Part shown: positions 5,331 to 44,567 of the stretch, piece after piece | Numbering within the stretch: position 1 is the stretch's first letter | How the letters are laid out: each line of letters begins with the position of its first letter | Source: a virus | IMG/VR virus record: IMGVR_UViG_3300021368_001939 | Location: 1-45,824 of that record | Direction: 5' to 3' (one strand) | DNA: 45,824 nt | The notes under the pieces: generated by a model | Database searches by the model: none | Told to the model about the DNA's origin: nothing | The model's input: the letters and a program-made list of their open reading frames with translations, nothing else | Position numbers and translations under genes: made by a program

Positions 5331-5333
5331 TTT

Positions 5334-5576
5334 ATGAATTTTAAAGTATATACAAAAGAAAATTGTCCCTATTGCTATAAGATTAAACAGGTATTAGAAC
5401 TCACAGGAACAGAATTTGATACTTATAATCTTGGAGAGGACTTTACACGAGAAGAATTCTATGCTAAATTTGGTATGGGTTCTACTTTTCCGCAGGTAGT
5501 ATGTGACAATAAAAAATTAGGAGGATGTATTGACACAATCAAATTCCTCAGAGAACAACAAGTCATCAAGTCCTAA
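5334..5576 (+). CDS. Glutaredoxin
   Basis: The 80-residue protein has the dithiol active site C11-P-Y-C14 after the first beta strand, the cis-proline motif TFPQV and the GGCIDT glutathione-binding end, so it is a complete glutaredoxin. Phage glutaredoxins usually supply electrons to ribonucleotide reductase; that is family knowledge. It lies 3 nt after the carbamoyltransferase and overlaps the next ORF. Confidence 0.9.
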   Translation: MNFKVYTKENCPYCYKIKQVLELTGTEFDTYNLGEDFTREEFYAKFGMGSTFPQVVCDNKKLGGCIDTIKFLREQQVIKS

Positions 5577-5763
5577 CATAAATAAATCAGAAGACCACAG
5601 AAATCGTGGTATTGAATTCTTGCTTAATGGAGGTAAGAGAAAGCAAACAGTACCATTTCACATTATGTTTGAAAAGATGGTTTGCTTTCTAATATGGAAA
5701 GTAAATATTCATTTTGAATTTTCTATCAAGACATCCCGGAGTAAGAAAAATGTTAGCAACTAG
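5530..5763 (+). CDS. Small basic/hydrophobic protein overlapping glutaredoxin
   Basis: A 77-codon frame starts at TTG 5530 inside the glutaredoxin gene. A perfect AGGAGG lies at 5519-5524, 5 nt before this TTG, which is the main argument that it is real. The N-terminus is Ser/Asn rich and polar. The C-terminal half (TVPFHIMFEKMVCFLIWKV) is basic and hydrophobic. It overlaps the next gene by 14 nt. No family is recognised. It could still be a chance overlap, since AGGAGG also encodes Gly-Gly of glutaredoxin. Confidence 0.45.
   Translation: MTQSNSSENNKSSSPNINKSEDHRNRGIEFLLNGGKRKQTVPFHIMFEKMVCFLIWKVNIHFEFSIKTSRSKKNVSN
5578..5584 (+). promoter_or_regulatory. Late promoter-like ATAAATA
   Basis: ATAAATA lies just after the glutaredoxin stop, 166 nt before the membrane-protein gene at 5750. 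It is weakly supported, since the motif is common in AT-rich DNA. Confidence 0.3.
5638..5690 (+). repeat. Perfect 11-bp inverted repeat
   Basis: AGAAAGCAAAC (5638-5648) is the exact reverse complement of GTTTGCTTTCT (5680-5690), with a 31-nt loop. It could form an RNA hairpin upstream of the gene at 5750; no clear U-tract follows. Confidence 0.6.
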
Positions 5764-5977
5764 TTTAGTATTTGGTTCATTTCTAACCATTTTATTTCTT
5801 ATGATGGGACTGATGATTGGTTGGACTTCCAGAGAATACATGATGAACTATAGAGAGGCACCGAGATATCATCCTGAAATGTTTGATGAGCAAGGAAATC
5901 TCATTCCAGATGAAGTAATCGCATTTAATTTTGAAAACTATGACGACAGCAACGAAGAAGAAAACGACAACGACTAA
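5750..5977 (+). CDS. Small single-span membrane protein
   Basis: The ATG at 5750 is preceded by GGAG at 5738-5741 (8 nt spacing), so it is preferred over upstream non-ATG starts. The 75-residue product has one transmembrane helix at about residues 3-24 (Leu/Phe/Met rich, ending GWTSREYM) and a polar, strongly acidic C-terminus (DDSNEEENDND). Topology is probably N-out or signal-anchored. The function is unknown. It overlaps the next gene by 38 nt. Confidence 0.65.
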   Translation: MLATSLVFGSFLTILFLMMGLMIGWTSREYMMNYREAPRYHPEMFDEQGNLIPDEVIAFNFENYDDSNEEENDND

Positions 5978-6521
5978 GGCAGTATCATTAGAACTTCCAA
6001 AAAATCCATTTGTCTTTGAAGTTTTAGATCTTGTTTCCAAACAGAGAAGTAAGGCAAAGAAGGTTGAAGTTCTTAAGAAGTATGAACATGTTTCTTTAAA
6101 AGCAGTATTGATTTGGAACTTTGATGAAAGCATAATTTCTATGCTTCCTGAAGGAGAAGTTCCTTATTCTGGATTTGAGGATCAGGCATCATCAAATGGA
6201 ACTCTGAGCACTAAAATCACAGAAGAAGTCCGTAGAATGCATGAAATGGATTCATTTTCTATGGGTTCGAGTGATAAGAACGGACACACTACAATTCGTA
6301 GAGAGTTTAAGAACTTCTATCACTTTCTTAAGGGTGGTAATGATGCTATGAGTGGTGTTCGTCGTGAAACGATGTTCATTAATATTCTTGAGGGACTTCA
6401 TCCATTAGAGGCAGAGATTATTTGTCTTTGTAAGGATAAAAAACTTTCCGATAGATATAAGATCACAAAAGAAATTGTAAGTGAAGCATATCCAGACATT
6501 ACTTGGGGAAATCGTTCATAA
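5940..6521 (+). CDS. Conserved cyanophage protein (possibly DUF6433 family)
   Basis: The 193-residue protein has a Lys/Thr-rich start, then LPKNPFVFEVLDLVSKQRSK, a helical body, and a C-terminal segment rich in Leu and charged residues (LEGLHPLEAEIICLCKDKKL). I associate this pattern with a conserved marine T4-like phage family of unknown function, tentatively DUF6433. No catalytic motif is visible. The start at ATG 5940 lies in the end of the membrane-protein gene; TTG 5931 is an alternative. Confidence 0.75.
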   Translation: MTTATKKKTTTTKAVSLELPKNPFVFEVLDLVSKQRSKAKKVEVLKKYEHVSLKAVLIWNFDESIISMLPEGEVPYSGFEDQASSNGTLSTKITEEVRRMHEMDSFSMGSSDKNGHTTIRREFKNFYHFLKGGNDAMSGVRRETMFINILEGLHPLEAEIICLCKDKKLSDRYKITKEIVSEAYPDITWGNRS

Positions 6522-6523
6522 TT

Positions 6524-6883
6524 ATGGCAAATAAATTGGGAGATGCTCCCACTAAAACAGAAGAGGAACAGTTTATGACCTCATGGACATCATCAGAAAA
6601 AGAAAACTCTAAATCCGTATACGGATGCGATATACTGATAGAGAATGGAACTTGGGAACAAGTATCTACTAAAGATTATCCTTATGATGCCATGATAATC
6701 ACCTATGTGGTTGATGGAGAAACGAGATATGATTTGACTCGCAGTCAAAAAGAAGTTCGTATCTTTAATATGTACTGGGATAAGTTTCGTGACAATCTAA
6801 AAGGTATTGACTTTGGTATGGGAAGAATCAATCCAAAACTATGGGGAGTAGAATCACCACCCCCAACCAAAAAGCGGAAATAG
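6524..6883 (+). CDS. Hypothetical conserved protein
   Basis: The 119-residue protein starts MANKLGDAPTKTEEEQF and ends in a Pro/Lys-rich tail (ESPPPTKKRK). The middle reads as a small alpha/beta domain (YDAMIITYVVDGETRYDLTR). No family is recognised with confidence. It is 2 nt after the previous gene and probably co-transcribed. The transcription unit then ends at the terminator at 6953. Confidence 0.65.
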   Translation: MANKLGDAPTKTEEEQFMTSWTSSEKENSKSVYGCDILIENGTWEQVSTKDYPYDAMIITYVVDGETRYDLTRSQKEVRIFNMYWDKFRDNLKGIDFGMGRINPKLWGVESPPPTKKRK

Positions 6884-6952
6884 TTCCAAAAAAGTCGAGA
6901 AAAAATCTCCAGCAATTTTTTGGTCTGTAGGGTCGATTATAAAATTGTCACA

Positions 6953-6977
6953 GCACCTCTTCACAGGGGTGCTTTTT
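6953..6977 (+). terminator. Rho-independent terminator
   Basis: GCACCTC pairs with GGGGTGC around the 6-nt loop TTCACA, followed by five T. It ends the unit that closes at 6883. Its loop also forms the -35-like hexamer of the next promoter. Confidence 0.85.
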
Positions 6978-6987
6978 CGTGTATAAT
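6960..6987 (+). promoter_or_regulatory. Sigma70-type promoter nested in terminator
   Basis: TTCACA (6960-6965, the terminator loop) and TATAAT (6982-6987) are 16 nt apart; GTG immediately precedes the -10. The start site would be near 6994, ahead of the ATG at 7012. Confidence 0.7.
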
Positions 6988-7011
6988 ACGGGAGTGCTTA
7001 ATAACAATAAC

Positions 7012-7575
7012 ATGACACTTGAAATGATTCCTCTCACTCCATCTGATCTTCAGGGACCAAAAAGAATTTCACCTTTAGTAGATTGTAAATTAAAACTTTT
7101 TTTGTCTTGTATTAATGATGTTTTACCTTTAAATTCCGAAAGTATTTCTGCATTATCAGATGATGAATTTTCTCTTGTGGATGAAGAAATTTGGTTATTG
7201 TATTCAACACTTAAAGTTAAAAAATCTTATTTTGAGTCTTTAGATTTGCCTGAGTATCATGATGATTATGAACAACTTGAAAAAATTATAAGAAAAATGG
7301 TTATTGCAAAAAGATTTATCAAAGAGATTGATAGAGAAAAATACTTTCGTCTTTTTAAAAGGTATGATCTACTTTCCGACAAATATACGAATAGAGAAGA
7401 ACTTAAATTTTTTATTCGTTCTATTAAATCTGAAATTAATGATTTGTTCACTAGTAAATCTCCTAGAATTTTTTCTAAAATGTGTGAATATATGCTTGAT
7501 AATTATGGTGATGAAGCATTGAATAAAATGACAACATCCGTCATTTTTGACAAATTTGAGTGTGGGGTTGACTAA
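7012..7575 (+). CDS. Hypothetical helical protein
   Basis: The ATG at 7012 is chosen because the longer frame (GTG 6979) begins upstream of, and runs through, the promoter -10. The 187-residue product is mostly alpha-helical and rich in Lys, Glu, Leu and Phe, with no recognisable motif, signal or membrane segment. It forms its own transcription unit between two strong promoters. No function can be assigned. Confidence 0.65.
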   Translation: MTLEMIPLTPSDLQGPKRISPLVDCKLKLFLSCINDVLPLNSESISALSDDEFSLVDEEIWLLYSTLKVKKSYFESLDLPEYHDDYEQLEKIIRKMVIAKRFIKEIDREKYFRLFKRYDLLSDKYTNREELKFFIRSIKSEINDLFTSKSPRIFSKMCEYMLDNYGDEALNKMTTSVIFDKFECGVD

Positions 7576-7596
7576 ATACAGTATAGGGTCTATAAT
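7568..7596 (+). promoter_or_regulatory. Sigma70 promoter TTGACT-17-TATAAT in a hairpin
   Basis: TTGACT (7568-7573) and TATAAT (7591-7596) are separated by 17 nt. Initiation is expected near 7603, just before the riboswitch-like RNA. The -10 lies within an inverted repeat (7583-7592 with 7596-7604, one bulged G). A CTAAATA late box (7572-7578) overlaps the -35. Confidence 0.8.
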
Positions 7597-7604
7597 AGAC
7601 CTAT

Positions 7605-7646
7605 CGTTCATCAGAGGAAACTCTGACGCAAGTAAGTCGCGGAACG
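7605..7646 (+). ncRNA. Glutamine-riboswitch-like leader RNA (glnA/Downstream-peptide type)
   Basis: P1 pairs CGTTC (7605-7609) with GAACG (7642-7646). After one A, P2 pairs TCAGAG (7611-7616) with CTCTGA (7621-7626) around a GAAA tetraloop. The next segment, CGCAAGTAAG, resembles the conserved CGGAAGTAGG of the glnA RNA class. The element starts about where the promoter should initiate. The last G of P1 is the first base of the Shine-Dalgarno GGAG (7646-7649) of the gene at 7657, so P1 formation could affect translation. The class assignment is from remembered consensus, not a covariance search. Confidence 0.65.
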
Positions 7647-7656
7647 GAGAATTGGA

Positions 7657-8250
7657 ATGATTTACTACACTTACTACTCTTACGAACCCTTTGGGAGAGG
7701 CTACATTGGTAGTAGAGGATGTGAGTGTAATTCAGTGGAGGAGGATAATTATTTTGGTTCCTACGGAGACAAAACATTTAATCCTTCCTGTAAAATCATT
7801 CTTACCGAACATACTACGAGAGAGGAAGCAGTTGAAGCAGAAGTAAAACTCCATAAGTTTTACCAAGTTGATACTAATCCTCACTTTGCTAATAAAGCAA
7901 GGCAAACATCTGTTTCATTCTCTTACTCTGCTCCAAAAGGAGAGAGATCTGGAGAAAAAAATCCTTGTTTTGGTAAAGTTCGTGTTACTGACGGTAAAAA
8001 TGAACGAGTAGTTTATGAGAATGACATTCCTTCTGGTTGGTGGAAAGGTAGAAGTCGTAATCCACAAGAATACACTGGTACTAAATCCATAAAATATAAC
8101 ACCATAAAATATAACAGAGGTAAAATGTATGATGACTTTCTAAAAGATATAAGTAAAGATGAATCTATTTTATCTTTACCTATTAGAAAACTTGCAGAAG
8201 TTTATCAAACATCTCATACTTCTATTCGTCGCTGGAAAAAATCACTTTAA
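7657..8250 (+). CDS. GIY-YIG family homing endonuclease
   Basis: The N-terminus YYTYYSYEP followed by GRGYIGSRGC (residues 3-22) matches the GIY-YIG nuclease core, with acidic and Arg residues downstream. The middle carries SGEKNPCFGKV, a NUMOD3-like DNA-binding motif. The C-terminus (RKLAEVYQTSHTSIRRWKKSL starts at ~residue 176; core LAEVYQTSHTSIRRWK) is a helix-turn-helix. This is a free-standing homing endonuclease of 197 residues. GGAG at 7646-7649 gives 7-nt spacing to the ATG. It has its own promoter and a riboswitch-like leader, unusual for a selfish gene. Confidence 0.85.
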   Translation: MIYYTYYSYEPFGRGYIGSRGCECNSVEEDNYFGSYGDKTFNPSCKIILTEHTTREEAVEAEVKLHKFYQVDTNPHFANKARQTSVSFSYSAPKGERSGEKNPCFGKVRVTDGKNERVVYENDIPSGWWKGRSRNPQEYTGTKSIKYNTIKYNRGKMYDDFLKDISKDESILSLPIRKLAEVYQTSHTSIRRWKKSL

Positions 8251-8251
8251 T

Positions 8252-8430
8252 CGTTCATCCCATGTTAGAACTATTATTCTACACAACTCTCACCTGTGCT
8301 CAAACTGATGCTATCATACTGCGAATGCAGACAAATGAAAATATTAGTAATGAGTTTAGGGTTGAGTTAGTTGAGACAATGAAGGAATCAAATCCTGAAT
8401 GTTATTGGGACGCAAACGACTAAAGGAACG
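8252..8430 (+). ncRNA. Second glutamine-riboswitch-like RNA with an ORF inside its P2 loop
   Basis: CGTTC (8252-8256) can pair with GAACG (8426-8430) as P1; TCCC (8258-8261) with GGGA (8407-8410) as P2. GGGA is followed by CGCAAACGACTAAA, parallel to CGCAAGTAAGTCGCG in the copy at 7605. The P2 loop (8262-8406) contains nearly all of a 53-codon ORF whose ATG starts at the base after P2. The pairing is seen; function and ligand are inference. Confidence 0.45.
8262..8423 (+). CDS. Small putative secreted/periplasmic protein
   Basis: The 53-residue product starts MLELLFYTTLTCAQTD, a short hydrophobic leader, and ends PECYWDAND. Two cysteines (about positions 12 and 47) could form a disulfide after export. 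I recall similar small proteins ending WDAND in cyanophages. There is no Shine-Dalgarno: CGTTCATCCC abuts the ATG. The gene is embedded in a potential RNA structure, and its last codons (GAC GCA AAC GAC TAA) form part of the RNA consensus-like core. Confidence 0.65.
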   Translation: MLELLFYTTLTCAQTDAIILRMQTNENISNEFRVELVETMKESNPECYWDAND

Positions 8431-8464
8431 GGCCTAAGAATCCAACTACTTTAGGAGTAAAATC

Positions 8465-8608
8465 ATGTCTACTATCACTTATCGTGGTGTTAAGTACAAC
8501 CCAGAAGCATACAAAGCTGCTGTGTTGGCAGAGCAAACTGCAACTCGTAACCACAATCTCATGTATCGTGGTATCAAAATCGAACGCAAGTTTGCATCAC
8601 AAAGTTGA
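8465..8608 (+). CDS. DUF4278-like small protein
   Basis: The 47-residue protein has two YRG motifs (TYRGVKY near the start, MYRGIKI near the end), the hallmark of the cyanobacterial DUF4278 family of unknown function. A strong TAGGAG lies 6 nt before the ATG. It follows the riboswitch-like element at 8252-8430 and would be its downstream gene. It ends just before a terminator at 8632. The family link is from motif recall. Confidence 0.7.
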   Translation: MSTITYRGVKYNPEAYKAAVLAEQTATRNHNLMYRGIKIERKFASQS

Positions 8609-8631
8609 CGATCATCGCACTTAACTTTCCT

Positions 8632-8656
8632 GAGGGTTGCAAGACCCTCTTTTTTT
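8632..8656 (+). terminator. Rho-independent terminator
   Basis: GAGGGTT pairs with GACCCTC around a GCAA tetraloop, followed by seven T. It ends the unit containing the DUF4278-like gene. Confidence 0.9.
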
Positions 8657-8666
8657 ATGCTATAAT
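8637..8666 (+). promoter_or_regulatory. Promoter nested in terminator, extended -10
   Basis: TATAAT (8661-8666) is preceded by TGC (extended -10). The TTGCAA at the loop (8637-8642) is 18 nt upstream and could act as a weak -35. Initiation near 8673 would serve the ATG at 8688. Confidence 0.65.
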
Positions 8667-8687
8667 GGTATCGAAGTAATATAGTGT

Positions 8688-8849
8688 ATGGAAAAAGAAA
8701 GAGTTAATTTGATTATTCGTAATTTGGAACTTCTTTTGGATTCTCTAAAGGCAGAAGTAAATTCTGATAGAGATGATAAGGTAGACTATAATCCATATAG
8801 TGAATATATTGAAGATTATGATGAAGTCTATGATGAGAAAAATGATTGA
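8688..8849 (+). CDS. Small acidic hypothetical protein
   Basis: The 53-residue protein starts MEKERVNLIIRNLELLLDSL (an amphipathic helix) and continues into a highly acidic, Tyr/Asp-rich tail (YIEDYDEVYDEKND). It is the first gene after the terminator-promoter at 8632-8666 and overlaps the next gene by 20 nt. It has no recognised family. Confidence 0.6.
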   Translation: MEKERVNLIIRNLELLLDSLKAEVNSDRDDKVDYNPYSEYIEDYDEVYDEKND

Positions 8850-9012
8850 AACAAAAAAAGCAAAAGAACTTGTAAAACTGCTTGAAAGACTGATCGAGAA
8901 AGATTACCTCTACAGTGAAGAAAGCATCAGAGAAATGAAATCACAACTGCGTTCGGTAAAACAGCAGATTGTTGATATAGATAAAAAGAACTCAAAGGGA
9001 TTTGGAAAATGA
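8830..9012 (+). CDS. Small coiled-coil hypothetical protein
   Basis: The 60-residue, lysine-rich protein is helical (KKAKELVKLLERLIEKDYLY, then REMKSQLRSVKQQIVDIDKK) and ends NSKGFGK. The start is uncertain: ATG 8830, 8833 and 8842 are all in frame, and the last overlaps the previous stop. It overlaps thyX by 4 nt, so it is probably translated together with it. Conserved small proteins of this type are common before thyX-like genes in cyanophages (recollection). Confidence 0.65.
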   Translation: MMRKMIETKKAKELVKLLERLIEKDYLYSEESIREMKSQLRSVKQQIVDIDKKNSKGFGK

Positions 9013-9662
9013 ATGTAAAATTGATCAGTGTTACTCCTGATGCGGAGAAAACTATGGCCTATGTTGCGAGAGTGTCAAATCCGAAAAATCAGACCAATGA
9101 AAACTATGTCAAGTTGTTGGGTTATTGTATCAAGCACAATCACTGGAGTGTCTTTGAGCAGTCATTCATGACTCTTGAGATTGAGACCACAAGAGGACTT
9201 GCAGCTCAAATCTTGCGTCATCGGAGTTTTACATTTCAGGAGTTTTCTCAGAGATATGCAGACTCATCTTTGTTGAGTACAAATATTCCTCTTCCTGAAC
9301 TTCGTCGTCAAGATACAAAAAATCGTCAGAATTCTATTGATGATATTGATAAATTTAAAGTTCAGAAGTATCAAATGTTGATGCAAGATTATTTTGCACA
9401 AGGTATGGATTTATATCAACAAATGCTTACCGATGGAATTGCAAAAGAATGTGCAAGATTTGTTCTTCCTTTAGCAACTCCTACCAGACTTTATATGAGT
9501 GGTTCTTGTCGTTCTTGGATTCATTATATTGCACTCCGAGAAAAATCAGGAACTCAAAAAGAACATATGGACATTGCCAAAGAATGTAAAAAAATCTTTG
9601 TAGAGCAGTTTCCAACTTGCGCCGAAGCACTTGGAGGTTTAGATGTGGACTGGGTATTGTAA
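9009..9662 (+). CDS. thyX: FAD-dependent thymidylate synthase
   Basis: The ThyX signature RHRSFTFQEFSQR (R70 onward) matches RHRxxSxxExSxR closely, giving the FAD/dUMP-binding loop. Other family features are present: HWSVFEQ, RFVLPLATPTRLYMSGSCRSWIHY and the C-terminal CKKIFVEQFP. At 217 residues it is full length. It makes dTMP from dUMP with methylene-tetrahydrofolate and NAD(P)H, supplying phage DNA synthesis. It overlaps the upstream coiled-coil gene by 4 nt. Confidence 0.95.
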   Translation: MNVKLISVTPDAEKTMAYVARVSNPKNQTNENYVKLLGYCIKHNHWSVFEQSFMTLEIETTRGLAAQILRHRSFTFQEFSQRYADSSLLSTNIPLPELRRQDTKNRQNSIDDIDKFKVQKYQMLMQDYFAQGMDLYQQMLTDGIAKECARFVLPLATPTRLYMSGSCRSWIHYIALREKSGTQKEHMDIAKECKKIFVEQFPTCAEALGGLDVDWVL

Positions 9663-9688
9663 TGTTCTGAAAGATCTTCAGAATGGAT

Positions 9689-9695
9689 CTAAATA
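9689..9695 (+). promoter_or_regulatory. Late promoter motif CTAAATA
   Basis: CTAAATA lies 21 nt before the TTG start at 9717, with GAGGTG in between as ribosome binding site. It suggests late expression of the next gene and possibly phoH. Confidence 0.6.
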
Positions 9696-9716
9696 TTTTA
9701 TATTGAGGTGAAAATT

Positions 9717-9965
9717 TTGGCAACATACCCAATTATTAATAAAGAAACTGGTGAACAGAAAGAAGTCGTTCTGAGTGTTCATGAATGGACAAAATGGTGT
9801 GATGATAATCCTGAATGGACACGAGATTGGTCAGATCCATCTACTGCACCTATGGCAACAGATGTTGGTGAATGGAGAGATAAATTGGTCGCAAAAAATC
9901 CTGGATGGAATGAAGTTTTAAATAAGGCATCAAAAGCACCTGGTTCGAGAGTAAGTAAAATCTAA
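9717..9965 (+). CDS. Conserved cyanophage protein starting MATYPIINKETGE
   Basis: A TTG start at 9717 is preferred: GAGGTG (9705-9710) is 6 nt upstream and it gives the typical N-terminus (TTG)ATYPIINKETGE; GTG 9708 lies inside that Shine-Dalgarno. The 82-residue product is Trp/Asp rich (HEWTKWCDDNPEWTRDWSD) and ends in a basic KASKAPGSRVSKI. The start resembles FmdB-type zinc-ribbon proteins but lacks their cysteine pairs. The function is unknown. Its stop overlaps the phoH start (TAATG). Confidence 0.7.
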   Translation: MATYPIINKETGEQKEVVLSVHEWTKWCDDNPEWTRDWSDPSTAPMATDVGEWRDKLVAKNPGWNEVLNKASKAPGSRVSKI

Positions 9966-10726
9966 TGGCAAGAAGAAAAAGAGCATCTGTAAATGATCAA
10001 CCCATTGGAGTTGGTCTTTCAACAAAGCAGATGAAAAAAAAGAAACCACTAAGTTCTTCTTACTTAGTAGACATAGACCCACTTAATGAAAATCAAAAAA
10101 GACTGTTTGATTCTTATAAGGAAGGAAAGCATTTAGTCGCATATGGTTGTGCAGGGACAGGAAAGACCTTTATAACCCTCTTTAACGCACTTAAAGATGT
10201 GTTAGATGAGAATACTCCTTATGAGAGAATATACCTTGTGAGGTCTCTTGTAGCAACCAGAGAGATTGGTTTTCTTCCTGGTTCTCATGAAGATAAGGCA
10301 GACATCTACCAAATTCCATATAAGAATATGGTAAAGTATATGTTCCAGATGCCTTCTGATGCTGATTTTGAGATGTTATATGGAAATCTAAAATCACAAG
10401 AAACTATTAAATTCTGGAGCACATCATTTCTTCGTGGAACAACTCTTGATAATGCGATTGTGATTGTTGATGAATTTCAAAATTTGTCCGGGCACGAATT
10501 AGATTCTATTATTACTCGTGTTGGTGAAAATACAAGAATTTGTTTCTGTGGTGATGCTACCCAGTCTGACCTTACTAAAATGGGTGAAAGGAATGGTATT
10601 GTTGACTTTATGAACATCTTGCGTAAAATGCCATCATTTGATATGATTGAGTTTGGTATTGAGGACATTGTTCGATCATCTTTGGTTAAAGAATATCTTA
10701 TTGCCAAAATAGAATTAGGACTTTAA
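9965..10726 (+). CDS. phoH: PhoH-like P-loop ATPase
   Basis: Walker A is GCAGTGKT (residues 61-68) and Walker B is IVIVDEFQN. Sensor-like GDATQSDL and the motif ARMYLVRS-like IYLVRSLVATREIGFLPG follow the PhoH pattern. At 253 residues with a basic leader (MARRKRA), this is the normal cyanophage form. PhoH proteins are predicted RNA-linked ATPases/helicases; the phage role is unknown despite the phosphate-stress name. It is probably co-transcribed with the preceding small gene. Confidence 0.93.
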   Translation: MARRKRASVNDQPIGVGLSTKQMKKKKPLSSSYLVDIDPLNENQKRLFDSYKEGKHLVAYGCAGTGKTFITLFNALKDVLDENTPYERIYLVRSLVATREIGFLPGSHEDKADIYQIPYKNMVKYMFQMPSDADFEMLYGNLKSQETIKFWSTSFLRGTTLDNAIVIVDEFQNLSGHELDSIITRVGENTRICFCGDATQSDLTKMGERNGIVDFMNILRKMPSFDMIEFGIEDIVRSSLVKEYLIAKIELGL

Positions 10727-10729
10727 TTT

Positions 10730-10861
10730 TTGACTGGTTGGGAAGGCAATTTGACACAAAAACAAATTGCCAAAATGTATAATGTTAGGCAAGGGCACAT
10801 AACTAAAATTAAAAATGGAAAAATGTGGTCTAATATCACAAAACATAATAATGTGCTATAA
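10730..10861 (+). pseudogene. Helix-turn-helix remnant of a homing endonuclease
   Basis: A 43-codon frame from TTG 10730 encodes NLTQKQIAKMYNVRQGHITK then IKNGKMW. This is the classic C-terminal helix-turn-helix (NUMOD-like) of phage HNH or GIY-YIG homing endonucleases. There is no nuclease domain and no Shine-Dalgarno. The frame starts right after the phoH stop and continues in phoH's own frame. It is most likely the tail of a deleted endonuclease, although a tiny DNA-binding protein cannot be excluded. Confidence 0.6.
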
Positions 10862-10882: not shown

Positions 10883-11563
10883 ATGTTTAATCATGTATAT
10901 TTGAATCTTCCTCAACTTGAGAGGGAGACTATTGATGGAGTTAGATACTACTTTGTTCCTGATGAAGAACAACTCTTAAAACTAGTTTCTATCACTTCGG
11001 TGACCAGTCATTATAATAAGGAGACTTTCGTAAAATGGAGAAAAAGAGTTGGTGATGAAGAAGCAAATCGAGTCACAAAGGCTGCAACACGTCGTGGTAC
11101 TGATATGCACACTCTTACTGAGTGTCACCTAAAAAACATAGAGTTGCCAAAAGTTCCTCCTATTTCCGAGTTCTTATTTAAGATTTCTAAGGGAACTTTA
11201 AAGAACATTGATAATATTCATGCTCTGGAAGCTTCCCTATATAGTAAGCAGTTAGGTATTGCTGGAACCGTCGATTGTATTGCAGAATACGAGGGTGAAT
11301 TAGCAATCATTGACTTTAAGACTTCAAAGAAACCTAAACCAAGAGATTGGATCGAAAACTATTTTGTCCAATGTGCAGCATATGGTTGTATGTTGTATGA
11401 AATGACTGGTATTCCCGTCAAAAAATTTGTAATCATTATGGCTTGTGAAAATGGAGAATGTGTCGTCTACGAAGAAAGAGACAAATCAAAGTACATCAAA
11501 CTTCTTACCGAATACATTAGAAAGTTTGTTACAGATAAATTGGAACTCTATGGATCAGAATAA
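10883..11563 (+). CDS. PD-(D/E)XK nuclease (RecB/MGME1-like exonuclease)
   Basis: The 226-residue protein has the nuclease core AGTVDCIAEYEGELAIIDFK (acid in GTVD, then IIDFKTSKK as the D-x-K motif), followed by a Gln-Tyr segment (FVQCAAYGCML) as in RecB-family motif QxxxY. The N-terminal SITSVTSHYNKETFVKWRKR and GTDMHTLTE also fit the MGME1-like group. It probably degrades or trims DNA during replication or host-genome breakdown. GAGG at 10874-10877 gives good spacing to the ATG. It heads the gp33-gp59 group and overlaps gp33. Confidence 0.82.
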   Translation: MFNHVYLNLPQLERETIDGVRYYFVPDEEQLLKLVSITSVTSHYNKETFVKWRKRVGDEEANRVTKAATRRGTDMHTLTECHLKNIELPKVPPISEFLFKISKGTLKNIDNIHALEASLYSKQLGIAGTVDCIAEYEGELAIIDFKTSKKPKPRDWIENYFVQCAAYGCMLYEMTGIPVKKFVIIMACENGECVVYEERDKSKYIKLLTEYIRKFVTDKLELYGSE

Positions 11564-39419: not shown

Positions 39420-39571
39420 AAACCCTGTAGACTACCTTTGTTAGGGTTGAAGAGGAGGGGCTAAGCTCTTAAAGAAATCCACTCCCACAACTGTCACACC
39501 AATTCATGCCTGGTCTCAGTTTTCGTTGTATACTTACGAAGTAGTCAATCGGACAACCATTCAATGCTCGC

Positions 39572-39751: not shown

Positions 39752-40606
39752 ATGAGCACACTCGTTAAAATCGGTATCGGTGCCGGTGTCGGTCTTCTTG
39801 CACTTACTCTTACCGCAGGTCAATTCACCACACTCAAAACTGGAGAAAATGGACTCTATGTTGGTTTTGATGGACAGGTAAAAGACAGTATCATTCAACC
39901 TGGTATTCATTTCGATGGATTGGGTTCAATCAAAACCTTCAATACTCGTAAGATTACTGTTGCTGCGAATGATCTTCGTCCGAAGACCAAAGACAACACA
40001 ATCATGAAGGACATGGATGTGGTTGTAACTTATGCCATCAATCCTGGTTCTCTCTATCGTTTCTATACTGATTACGATATGTCTAATCATGATATGTATA
40101 GGAATGGACAGATTCAACTGATGTCCAACTACATTGGTCGATTGATTGCTTCTGCTGTAAACCAATCTGTTGATGAGTTTCCTGCTCTGGAAGTGAATAG
40201 CAGTCTTGATAGGATTCAAGAAGTTATTAAGACTAATCTTCAAGGACAACTGATCAAGAATGGTCTTGATTCTGGTATTCAAGTTGAAAGTGTTGTTGCC
40301 GTAAAGGCAGATCTTCCTGATACTTTAGTTGAAAGTGTCAATCGTGTTGTTGCTGCTCAGTCTGATAAGAAAGAAAAGACTGTTCGTAATGAAACTATTC
40401 TTCTTACACAGCAAACTAAAACTGATGTAGCAAAACTCAAAGCAGAAGAAAACAAGGCACTGGAGTCATCTATCACTCCCAGGTATCTTGAGTATCAACG
40501 CAATGAGATCATGAAAGAAGCATTTGCTAATGGTCAAATTGAGAAAATGATTATCGTAAATGGTTCTCCACTGGAAATGCTTCCTACTGGTAAAATCGGT
40601 AATTGA
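39752..40606 (+). CDS. SPFH/Band 7 (prohibitin-like) protein
   Basis: The 284-residue protein has an N-terminal signal anchor (residues ~6-23, IGIGAGVGLLALTLTAG), then the SPFH domain with NGLYVGFDGQVKDSIIQPGI, HFDGLG, NTRKI and MKDMDVVVTYAINPG. A C-terminal helical/coiled part follows (RNETILLTQQTKTDVAKLKA). Cyanophages often carry such prohibitin homologues. The function is unproven; membrane scaffolding or protection of host proteases is suggested in the family. Confidence 0.9.
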   Translation: MSTLVKIGIGAGVGLLALTLTAGQFTTLKTGENGLYVGFDGQVKDSIIQPGIHFDGLGSIKTFNTRKITVAANDLRPKTKDNTIMKDMDVVVTYAINPGSLYRFYTDYDMSNHDMYRNGQIQLMSNYIGRLIASAVNQSVDEFPALEVNSSLDRIQEVIKTNLQGQLIKNGLDSGIQVESVVAVKADLPDTLVESVNRVVAAQSDKKEKTVRNETILLTQQTKTDVAKLKAEENKALESSITPRYLEYQRNEIMKEAFANGQIEKMIIVNGSPLEMLPTGKIGN

Positions 40607-40636
40607 TACTAAAGGGATAGTTTTCAAACTGGCACA

Positions 40637-40662
40637 CCACCTCTTCATAGGGGTGGTTTTTT
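40637..40662 (+). terminator. Rho-independent terminator
   Basis: CCACCTC pairs with GGGGTGG around loop TTCATA, then six T. It ends the SPFH unit and is near-identical in design to the one at 6953. Confidence 0.88.
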
Positions 40663-40672
40663 AATGTATAAT
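40644..40672 (+). promoter_or_regulatory. Promoter nested in terminator
   Basis: TTCATA (the terminator loop, 40644-40649) and TATAAT (40667-40672) are 17 nt apart. Initiation near 40679 would drive the helicase gene. Confidence 0.7.
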
Positions 40673-40696
40673 AAGTCCATAGTTCACCACACACCA

Positions 40697-41866
40697 GTGA
40701 CAATCACTCTTCGTCCACACCAGCAAGATGCCACCAAGGCAATGCTGAAGCATGATCGTGGGCAGATCATAATTCCAACTGGTGGTGGAAAGACCATGTG
40801 CATGATTCATGATACTCAGACACATTTCAAACTATTTGACAATCAAGTTCATGTGGTAGTCGCACCACGAATCTTGTTAGCAGATCAATTGTGCTCTGAA
40901 TTTCTAGAACACATCAATGCTCATGTGCTCCATGTGCATAGTGGAGATACAGAGCACTTTAGCACCACAAAAGCAAAGACCATCAAAGCATGGTCTGAGA
41001 ATGTTGGTGGTAATCAACTCATCTTTACGACTTATAACTCTCTTCATCGTATTGAAGAATCTGGTATTAAAGTAGATTCGATTTACTTTGATGAAGCACA
41101 CAATAGTGTCAAGAGAAACTTCTTTCCTTCTACTGAGTTTTTCAGTCATAATGCTGATCGTTGTTATTTCTTTACGGCAACACGTCGTACTTCTGCAACT
41201 ATTTTTAAACCCGGTATGAATGATACTGAGGTATATGGTGATGTAATTTATCGTGTTCCTGCACCTAAGTTGGTTGAGGAAGGATACATTCTTCCCCCCC
41301 AAATCAAATCAAAAAAGTTTGAGTTATTAAATCCTAAGGAAGTTACTTCCGAATGTGATTGTAATAATATTGTAAGGACATTAAAAGAAAATAACAAAAA
41401 CAAAATTCTTATTTGTGTTAAGAGCACAAAGCAACTTACTCACCTGATGTCAGAAACTGATTTTGCAGTTCAACTGTATGATATGGGATATTCAGTCCTT
41501 AGTATTACATCAAAAACTGGTGCTATTATTGATGGACAGGAAGTTGATCGTGAGGAGTTTTTTAGGACTCTGAATGCATGGGGCAAAGATCCAAACAAAA
41601 AATTTGTTTGTCTTCATCATTCAATTTTGAGTGAGGGAATTTCTGTTAATGGTCTTGAGTCCGTTATTTTTCTTCGCAATATGAATATTGTTGAGATGAT
41701 ACAAACAATTGGTAGAGTTCTTCGAACCGCTCCTGATAAAACTTATGGACTTTGTGTCGTCCCAGTGTATTCGAAAAATGGCATTTCCACTGAAAAGTCA
41801 CTTCAAAATGTTGTTGATACTGTTTTCGGTCGTGGTGAGATGCTTGATTCTGTTGTTCGGAGGTGA
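40697..41866 (+). CDS. uvsW: SF2 helicase, UvsW-like
   Basis: The GTG at 40697 gives 389 residues starting (GTG)TITLRPHQQDATKAM. ATG 40664 is in frame, but it lies upstream of the predicted transcription start and overlaps the -10. Motif I is PTGGGKT, motif II DEAH, motif III TATRR, and motif VI QTIGRVLR, all of superfamily 2. It is shorter than T4 UvsW (503), lacking the N-terminal domain. UvsW-type helicases process forks and R-loops and help switch replication to recombination-dependent mode. It ends 43 nt before an HNH gene. Confidence 0.85.
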   Translation: MTITLRPHQQDATKAMLKHDRGQIIIPTGGGKTMCMIHDTQTHFKLFDNQVHVVVAPRILLADQLCSEFLEHINAHVLHVHSGDTEHFSTTKAKTIKAWSENVGGNQLIFTTYNSLHRIEESGIKVDSIYFDEAHNSVKRNFFPSTEFFSHNADRCYFFTATRRTSATIFKPGMNDTEVYGDVIYRVPAPKLVEEGYILPPQIKSKKFELLNPKEVTSECDCNNIVRTLKENNKNKILICVKSTKQLTHLMSETDFAVQLYDMGYSVLSITSKTGAIIDGQEVDREEFFRTLNAWGKDPNKKFVCLHHSILSEGISVNGLESVIFLRNMNIVEMIQTIGRVLRTAPDKTYGLCVVPVYSKNGISTEKSLQNVVDTVFGRGEMLDSVVRR

Positions 41867-43315: not shown

Positions 43316-43459
43316 ATGAAATGCAAAGTCGAACTCTATGTTGCTGGCACTGTCTTTTATGAGACCGTTCATGCCCGTGACTATCAAGAAGCAAAAAAAG
43401 TAGCACTGGCACGTAATCCGAATGCTACTGTTGTTTCTGTCAATGCATCTTTCTTCTAA
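43316..43459 (+). CDS. Small hypothetical protein
   Basis: The 47-residue protein reads MKCKVELYVAGTVFYETVHA then RDYQEAKKVALARNPNATVV. It is a compact beta-alpha-beta-type sequence ending NASFF. It is the first gene of a small-ORF operon from the strong promoter at 43261. Its stop overlaps the next start (TAATG). The function is unknown. Confidence 0.65.
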   Translation: MKCKVELYVAGTVFYETVHARDYQEAKKVALARNPNATVVSVNASFF

Positions 43460-43671
43460 TGACTGAACAACAACTGACTGACGCAATCTGCGACCAAATT
43501 CAAGATTCAGTCCACCGCTGGGGGCGCGACAACATGCGAGCTGGCGCTGATTGGCAGATGCAGCAGGCTATTCGGCGCTTTGATGACTGGCATCTTAAGA
43601 CTCACGGATGGTCTATCGCAATTATTGAACTTGAGAGATTGTTGCGCCCCACCACACAGGAAGACAACTGA
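43459..43671 (+). CDS. Tandem paralogue 1 (MT..QLTD...DWQ...RP family)
   Basis: The 70-residue protein starts MTEQQLTDAICDQIQDSVHR, has AGADWQMQQAIRRFDDW in the middle and ends LERLLRPTTQEDN. The LTD start, ADWQxxQxI core and RPTTQE end are shared with the next three genes. Function is unknown. Start and stop are coupled to neighbours by TAATG and TGATG overlaps. Confidence 0.7.
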   Translation: MTEQQLTDAICDQIQDSVHRWGRDNMRAGADWQMQQAIRRFDDWHLKTHGWSIAIIELERLLRPTTQEDN

Positions 43672-43955
43672 TGACTAACCAACACCCACTGACTGACGAC
43701 ATCATTCGATACGATAAAAAACTAGGATGCCAGGATTTTGGCACTTGGATTTACACCGAAAATGATCTACGGGCTGCTACTGATTGGCAACTGAAGCAGG
43801 TGCTTGAATGGTTAAAAACTAATACTGAAGATTACGTATTAGAAGATTATTACAGCACTTATTTTCTTATCGAAGCTTTTCTTGATGACTTCAAGAAAGC
43901 AATGCGCCCCACCACGCAGGAGGAAAACTGATGACTGACCAACACCCACTGACTA
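43644..43955 (+). repeat. Repeated gene-junction cassette (two ~52-nt copies)
   Basis: 43644-43696 and 43904-43955 are near copies: GCGCCCCACCAC, a Shine-Dalgarno stretch, ACTGATGACT and CAACACCCACTGACT. They end one paralogue, carry the ribosome site and start the next. Shorter copies occur at 44140, 44320, 44570 and 45140. Confidence 0.75.
43671..43931 (+). CDS. Tandem paralogue 2
   Basis: The 86-residue protein starts MTNQHPLTDDIIRYDKKLGC, has LRAATDWQLKQVLEWLKTN and ends KAMRPTTQEEN. The variable middle (TEDYVLEDYYSTYFLIEAFL) distinguishes it from its neighbours. It overlaps both neighbours by one base (TGATG). Confidence 0.7.
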   Translation: MTNQHPLTDDIIRYDKKLGCQDFGTWIYTENDLRAATDWQLKQVLEWLKTNTEDYVLEDYYSTYFLIEAFLDDFKKAMRPTTQEEN

Positions 43956-44161
43956 ACAAAGATTTAGAAGATCTTGAAAAGTTATTGACCAGTAGCGTAC
44001 TGGGGCAACTTGTTCTGCCTTCTGACTTTGAGCTTGCCCGTGCCGCTGCTGATTGGCAGTTGGAACAGTGTATTGCCTGGTTAGATGACACCGATTGCGA
44101 TAATCCACAAGAAACAGCACAAAGATTGAGAGAAGCAATGCGCCCACAGGAGGACTCATGA
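43931..44161 (+). CDS. Tandem paralogue 3
   Basis: The 76-residue protein starts MTDQHPLTNKDLEDLEKLLT, has ARAAADWQLEQCIAWLDD and ends REAMRPQEDS. It shares ends and core with the adjacent copies. Its stop overlaps the next start by 4 nt. Confidence 0.7.
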   Translation: MTDQHPLTNKDLEDLEKLLTSSVLGQLVLPSDFELARAAADWQLEQCIAWLDDTDCDNPQETAQRLREAMRPQEDS

Positions 44162-44319
44162 AAACTATGATCACTATTTCGCTAACAAAAGAAGAAGCTA
44201 TCTACCTTACAAAGATTCTTTATGACAATAGTTGTGGTAACGAACGTAGTACTTCAGAGAATGGATCGTTATTAGATGAACTTGTAGATTTATTAGAAGT
44301 AAAACCGTGGGATCTATAG
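44158..44319 (+). CDS. Small hypothetical protein within paralogue cluster
   Basis: The 53-residue protein reads MKTMITISLTKEEAIYLTKI and ends LDELVDLLEVKPWDL. It looks helical and is not a member of the flanking paralogue family. CAGGAGG precedes the ATG, and a GGAGG follows for the next gene. Function is unknown. Confidence 0.65.
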   Translation: MKTMITISLTKEEAIYLTKILYDNSCGNERSTSENGSLLDELVDLLEVKPWDL

Positions 44320-44330
44320 GAGGATAACTG

Positions 44331-44567
44331 ATGACTGAACACCCACTGACTGACTCTTTCCTTCAAAGTTACTACAAATACGGCGATGGTCCTTACGATG
44401 AGGATCAAATGCGTGATGTTGCTGATCGGCAGTTGGAGCAGGTGATTGCTTGGTTGGAAGACAATCTAGGTTCTAGAATGTACTTGCATCTGGATGAAGA
44501 CAGCGGTACAGAAGTGAACGTTGGTTACGTTATTCAACACCTTCGCGAAGAAATGCGCCCATTATGA
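44331..44567 (+). CDS. Tandem paralogue 4
   Basis: The 78-residue protein starts MTEHPLTDSFLQSYYKYGDG, has RDVADRQLEQVIAWLEDN and ends HLREEMRPL. It is the most diverged copy, with RQ for WQ in the core. TAGGAGG lies 10 nt before the ATG. Confidence 0.7.
   Translation: MTEHPLTDSFLQSYYKYGDGPYDEDQMRDVADRQLEQVIAWLEDNLGSRMYLHLDEDSGTEVNVGYVIQHLREEMRPL

Follow-up and report, generated by a model that had tools for sequence, protein, structure and literature searches.

Stem-loops that couple a terminator to a promoter are reportedly known from RB49/phi1 and T4 as PeSLs (promoter-early stem-loops), said to have been described in 2010 by Arbiol and in 2014 by Comeau. They are said to consist of a terminator and an early sigma-70 promoter between genes, to be present in many copies and to act as gene-swap points, and KVP40 and nt-1 are reportedly counted as PeSL phages in the 2014 work. 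The cyanophage cassette described here resembles PeSLs in being an intergenic terminator-like stem-loop with a putative sigma-70 promoter, present in many copies and found at gene-swap points, but it differs from them in geometry. In RB49, the promoter stands in tandem with the terminator, the -35 starting 12-42 nt past the stem in 14 of 14 cases and never inside it, and both cases in T4 are likewise tandem (15 and 19 nt), whereas the promoter of the cyanophage cassette is nested. The tandem layout of RB49 was therefore rejected as a model for the three sites analysed below, in which the promoter does not lie downstream of the stem. We regard nested and tandem placement as two geometries of the one PeSL kind, the -35 on the loop being what distinguishes the cyanophage cassette.

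The Vibrio phage KVP40 also has what looks like a partly nested promoter: GGGTTGAC(T/G) or GGGTTGCTTCGG hairpins are followed by a T-tract and TATTAT, with a -35 to -10 spacer of 17-18, in ten copies over 200 kb, most of which share a downstream ATCGAAACGA. Unlike in cyanophages, however, its -35 lies mostly in the 5' arm and not squarely on the loop, its -10 is TATTAT and its sequence family is unrelated. KVP40 was not retained as a statistical confirmation, its elements being suggestive by eye but weak by permutation (21 of 179 permutations reach the count at 9/12). In the haloarchaeal virus HGTV-1, a repeated inverted repeat with a TATA-box-like motif precedes many genes and has been likened to PeSLs (PMC3950731), although these motifs are archaeal promoters.

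Regarding cyanophages, the consulted sections of Puxty et al. 2015 (PMC4503421) cite the PeSL papers, note the S-PM2 stem-loop at 11369-11391 as a possible PeSL and judge PeSLs too sparse in S-PM2 to account for gene gain; the same sections make no mention of a nested -10 or -35 in S-PM2 stem-loops. This stem-loop corresponds to a hairpin at 11368-11392 in our analysis, with TATAAT 7 nt after it. A literature search for promoters overlapping terminators found none.

Three sites and two designs in the window

The window, that is the whole stretch of DNA analysed, is the 45,824-nucleotide virus contig IMGVR_UViG_3300021368_001939 of IMG/VR. The closest named relative is a T4-like cyanophage, the Synechococcus phage S-SKS1 (Llyrvirus); matched pieces share ~91% identity with it over the first half of the window and ~78% over the second. 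A sequence-only reading of the window had proposed three places where TATAAT follows a hairpin and a T-tract and where the loop overlaps a -35-like hexamer. This description matches the sequence at all three; the sites lie where it had placed them, apart from a shift of 0-1 base outwards in where the hairpins start.

6503..6883, plus strand: gene upstream of copy 1 (PHROG 485, unknown function), whose transcript copy 1 would end
6937..6990, plus strand: cassette copy 1 (site 1), homologous to copy 3
6952-6973, plus strand: site 1 hairpin, AGCACCTCT-TCAC-AGGGGTGCT, followed by the T-tract TTTT at 6974-6977
6960-6965 and 6982-6987, plus strand: site 1 promoter signals, TTCACA on the loop and TATAAT, spacer 16
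7012..7575, plus strand: gene downstream of copy 1, without a PHROG match, predicted 5' leader of ~15-19 nt
8632..8666, plus strand: site 2 element, of a second design (hairpin, T7, TTGCAA, extended -10)
8632-8649, plus strand: site 2 hairpin, GAGGGTTGCAAGACCCTC, i.e. GAGGGTT-GCAA-GACCCTC, followed by T7
8637-8642 and 8661-8666, plus strand: site 2 promoter signals, TTGCAA on the loop and TATAAT (as TGC-TATAAT), spacer 18
8688..8849, plus strand: short ORF directly 3' of the site 2 element, leader of ~15 nt
40621..40680, plus strand: cassette copy 3 (site 3), with the conserved upstream AACTGGCACAC, hairpin and T-tract
40636-40657, plus strand: site 3 hairpin, with TTCATA on the loop at 40644-40649, spacer 17 and TATAAT at 40667-40672
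40698..41866, plus strand: UvsW-type helicase gene, downstream of copy 3

At each site, a stem of 7-9 bp and a run of 4-7 T precede an exact TATAAT, and of the eight hairpins in the window that qualify as strictly terminator-like, only these three are followed by this hexamer. The predicted RNA stems of sites 1, 2 and 3 reach -12.9, -11.1 and -13.7 kcal/mol (z of -5.5, -3.6 and -4.8, respectively), that of site 1 including one G-U pair, possible in RNA only. The orthologues of sites 1 and 2 are found on the minus strand of S-SKS1, at 198132-198111 and at 197054-197037, the latter with the loop TCGCAA. The site 2 promoter probably relies mainly on its extended -10 (TGC ahead of TATAAT). Concerning uvsW, its start is likely GTG 40698 rather than the ATG 40664 given by the ORF caller, as the latter overlaps the spacer and the -10 of copy 3 and the S-SKS1 homologue begins at a TTG equivalent to GTG 40698.

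The three sites had also been taken for independent copies, a claim that does not stand: with 83% identity over 41 nt, sites 1 and 3 are, on this measure, copies of one cassette, and the window contains two designs, not three. One cassette family is thus present there as two copies and a decayed third, and the evidence of independence comes instead from related genomes. The initial reading also makes no mention of PeSLs, the nearest known kind, or of a part played by the cassettes in gene shuffling.

Two other features of the window were recorded. A homing-endonuclease gene (PHROG 314) at 7650-8251 is a clean insertion, its flanks (5333-7649 and 8252-10731) being contiguous in S-SKS1 (197435/197434) with nothing lost. 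Besides, positions 43459-44567 hold a row of short ORFs with a repeated 52-nt coding motif (GCTGATTGGCAG...) in four copies, resembling tandem paralogues.

Promoter-like signals around cyanophage terminators

A terminator finder was written and run on 160 environmental loci, which had been retrieved through the ThyX or UvsW proteins they encode and were thus chosen independently of the motif. After the terminators of these loci, exact TATAAT forms a sharp peak 7-13 nt past the stem, where it is found in 37 of 350 independent cyanophage terminators against 1.8 expected from positions 25-113, i.e. a ~20-fold enrichment at a fixed offset. This enrichment is specific to the T-tract side and to that distance from the stem, and permuted hexamers show no such peak after the same terminators. 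In loci from cyanobacterial genomes, the arrangement occurs in just 3 of 392 terminators, two of the three lying in one contig that is labelled as a gammaproteobacterial MAG and has a phage-like psbA, and an origin in host DNA was rejected on these grounds.

The -35 was evaluated on 65 hairpins followed by TATAAT. Among 180 letter orderings, TTGACA ranks first at 16-18 nt upstream, its single-spacer profile peaking at 17, whereas it ranks 157th in terminators of the same genomes that have no -10. Counted over independent clusters, terminators with a -10 show 3.44 matches to TTGACA versus 2.39 for those without (p ~1e-8), and at least four of the six positions match in 24 of 54 terminators with a -10 versus 33 of 278 others (p ~1e-7). 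When the loop letters alone are shuffled, the score falls by 8 standard deviations (z = 8; 0/2000). In addition, the loop -35 is weaker in promoters whose -10 is extended (TGn; p = 0.006), which is the trade-off expected of real promoters. When the search starts from promoters, a stem surrounds the -35 in 8.7% of them versus 1.1% once the left flank is shuffled, and in RB49 the same test returned no promoter with a stem around its -35. Individually, roughly every second nested -35 agrees with TTGACA at just 2-3 of the six positions; the signal is modest in the S-SKS1 genome alone, 7 of 179 permutations scoring equally well, and S-PM2 has too few elements for a permutation test of its own.

A matched comparison of hairpins points in the same direction. 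In the family with a TTCAYA loop, to which sites 1 and 3 belong, a -10 matching at least five of six positions stands at the right distance in 14 of 14 independent IMG/VR contexts, while a comparable stem capped by a UUCG loop is followed by exact TATAAT in 0 of 37 cases and by a loose match in 5 of 37; this UUCG set apparently comes largely from other virus groups and therefore backs, but does not replace, the comparison within cyanophages. Taken together, these data show, at the level of sequence, selection on the hairpin, T-tract, -35 and -10 together. The stems vary freely in sequence between copies.

Gene context, spread and exchange at the uvsW junction

The cassette elements consist of an intrinsic-terminator-like stem-loop and T-tract between genes, and 57 of 65 elements have a stop codon on their upstream side and a start codon on their downstream side. 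They follow the stop codon by a median of 21 nt, and their -10 precedes the next ATG by a median of 22.5 nt (quartiles 21 and 34 nt, versus 19 and 100 nt for terminators that have no -10), the elements of the window having predicted leaders of ~15-19 nt. Such a placement fits both terminator and promoter function, and what appears to be a strong sigma-70-type promoter lies in the same element as the terminator. Sequence statistics thus support a single element of ~35-40 nt that combines an intrinsic terminator with a sigma-70-type promoter, in line with the terminator-nested promoter first proposed for the window, and gene placement agrees with it.

S-SKS1 carries at least a dozen terminator-promoter elements, among them some with TATAAT boxes at about 28,010, 82,040, 197,020 and 198,095 (minus strand), and related cassettes are present in eight more named Kyanoviridae (S-CAM7, S-CAM8, S-CAM9, Syn1, S-SSM5 and ACG-2014f/h/i), the named carriers spanning several genera of this family. 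Their aligned loops mostly read TTGACA, TTGACT, TTGACG or TTCACA, with ATCACA in S-CAM9 and, in ACG-2014f, CTCATG in a cassette without a -10. In several named phages, psbD directly precedes the cassette.

Some further observations were made during these searches. A 70-nt cassette query also matches eight Staphylococcus phage records with E up to 1, possibly by chance. A second class of elements, in which the hairpin is followed by TTTCTGCTATAAT, has an extended -10 instead of a loop -35 and is carried by the loci L102, L139, L159, L170 and L172 and by S-SKS1 (minus strand, 169900-169700, upstream of uvsW). Finally, the loci L307 and L244, assigned to a gammaproteobacterial and a euryarchaeal MAG, respectively, carry a psbA that shares 93% identity with the protein of S-SKS1; L307, which also has two terminator-TATAAT elements, may be a mis-binned cyanophage.

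One junction was followed in detail, between a tail gene and uvsW. Across genomes, this gap measures 85, 1223, 1549, 1767, 2069 or 3514 bp and holds from zero to several genes, with a cassette ahead of uvsW in every version and more cassettes inside some of them.

39489..39534, plus strand (window): remnant of a decayed cassette (AACTGTCACACCAATTCATGCCTGGT...GTATACT), to the left of the inserted gene
39752..40606, plus strand (window): inserted gene between the tail gene and uvsW, 284 aa, PHROG 200 'lipoprotein'
L096 junction, 85 bp: cassette alone
Window junction, 1223 bp: one gene and a cassette
L210 junction, 1549 bp: the inserted gene of the window, with a cassette on each side
Other junctions, 1767 or 2069 bp: other genes and a cassette
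L212 junction, 3514 bp: three cassettes

The inserted gene of the window is absent from this junction in S-SKS1 and L096, and L210 has an intact-looking cassette where the window has the decayed remnant. In L199, two cassettes flank an extra insert of ~290 bp at a place where the window has one cassette. At the uvsW junction, related phages hence differ by the gain, loss or swap of genes, and the cassettes bound these genes. A recombination step at the cassettes would account for these end states, from which it is deduced, and segmental duplication could be an alternative origin of homologous cassette copies. Conservation spans ~55 nt across 15 independent contexts, and AACTGTCACAC (AACTGGCACAC in the window, 40628-40635) is strongly conserved just 5' of the hairpin, outside promoter and terminator. 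A divergent promoter in AACTGTCACAC was considered and rejected, as by eye the spacing yields no -10.

Interpretations of the nested layout

In the light of these data, the sites are best read as the cyanophage form of PeSL composite cassettes, which would end one transcript, start the next from the host sigma-70 polymerase and serve as a recombination joint, a reading to which we assign a probability of roughly 0.82; termination, initiation and recombination are functions that we infer from the sequences. Once transcribed along with the upstream gene, the hairpin with its U-tract would release RNA polymerase, while in the DNA the loop and stem top would provide the -35, and the 3' arm and T-tract the 16-18 bp spacer before TATAAT. 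Selection on these letters suggests a promoter for a host sigma-70-type RNA polymerase, from which the downstream gene would obtain a separate transcript with a short leader; single genes or small operons would thereby each form a self-contained module. As near-identical cassettes recur at many places, they would also act as homology joints for gene gain, loss and swap. The 3' arm and offset average 17.5 nt, about the length of a sigma-70 spacer, so that the nested layout is explained without coupling of the two events: there is no need for a physical link between them, nor do the observations require the extrusion of a cruciform from arms of 7-9 bp, although a polymerase might be used again right after it has terminated.

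The match between arm and spacer is equally what would be expected if a compact genome simply packs its signals, the loop -35 being kept since arm and T-tract make up the spacer and the cassette being two separate signals only. As each signal alone accounts for its own conservation, this economy has a substantial, albeit less than even, chance of being the whole explanation. It is hard to tell from the composite-cassette reading, but near-identical cassettes are widespread and flank inserted genes on either side, which suggests a further role in shuffling.

Another alternative is that the nesting exists for passing polymerase between units, the enzyme staying at the T-tract after release and re-initiating with sigma at the promoter beneath. 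In vitro, E. coli RNA polymerase usually stays on DNA after intrinsic termination and diffuses along it, and with retained or supplied sigma it can reinitiate at nearby promoters (PMC6978380, PMC6978322). These single-molecule data make such a handover thinkable, and the nested geometry offers the shortest possible distance between terminator and promoter; the restart in PMC6978322 is nevertheless mostly antisense. Moreover, RB49 and T4 achieve the same layout with a promoter 12-42 nt downstream, and a terminating polymerase might just as well occlude the promoter, which leaves the handover unlikely. The idea that nesting is an evolved coupling device, by which polymerase held at the terminator is handed to the overlapping promoter and reads a chain of swappable modules, is rated lower again, as improbable.

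Palindromes overlapping a -35 are typical operators, and a repressor dimer bound to the hairpin sequence could block the promoter without any terminator being involved. A T-tract on the coding strand always follows by virtue of the search rule, yet TATAAT is enriched on that side and at that distance specifically; furthermore, the free variation of the stems leaves no shared operator, site 1 needs its G-U pair and the elements trail stop codons closely, which together make a DNA operator very unlikely. Lastly, chance in AT-rich phage DNA full of TATAAT and T-runs, which would suit a plain promoter scan of the window (97 matches versus 85.7 in shuffles), is ruled out by the offset, permutation and shuffle controls (the ~20-fold enrichment, the 3/392 in cyanobacterial terminators and the loop-shuffle z of 8), in keeping with the initial argument against chance and its call for a scan of cyanophage genomes against shuffled sequence.

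For the T4-like cyanophages, which are among the commonest viruses of the ocean, the composite cassette provides a unit of gene punctuation that is concrete and can be searched for. This unit also marks places of gene exchange and adjoins the photosynthesis gene psbD in several phages, and it calls into question the view that PeSL-type elements are too rare in cyanophages to matter. Finally, the cassettes constitute natural templates for testing the re-use of a terminating polymerase at an overlapping promoter.
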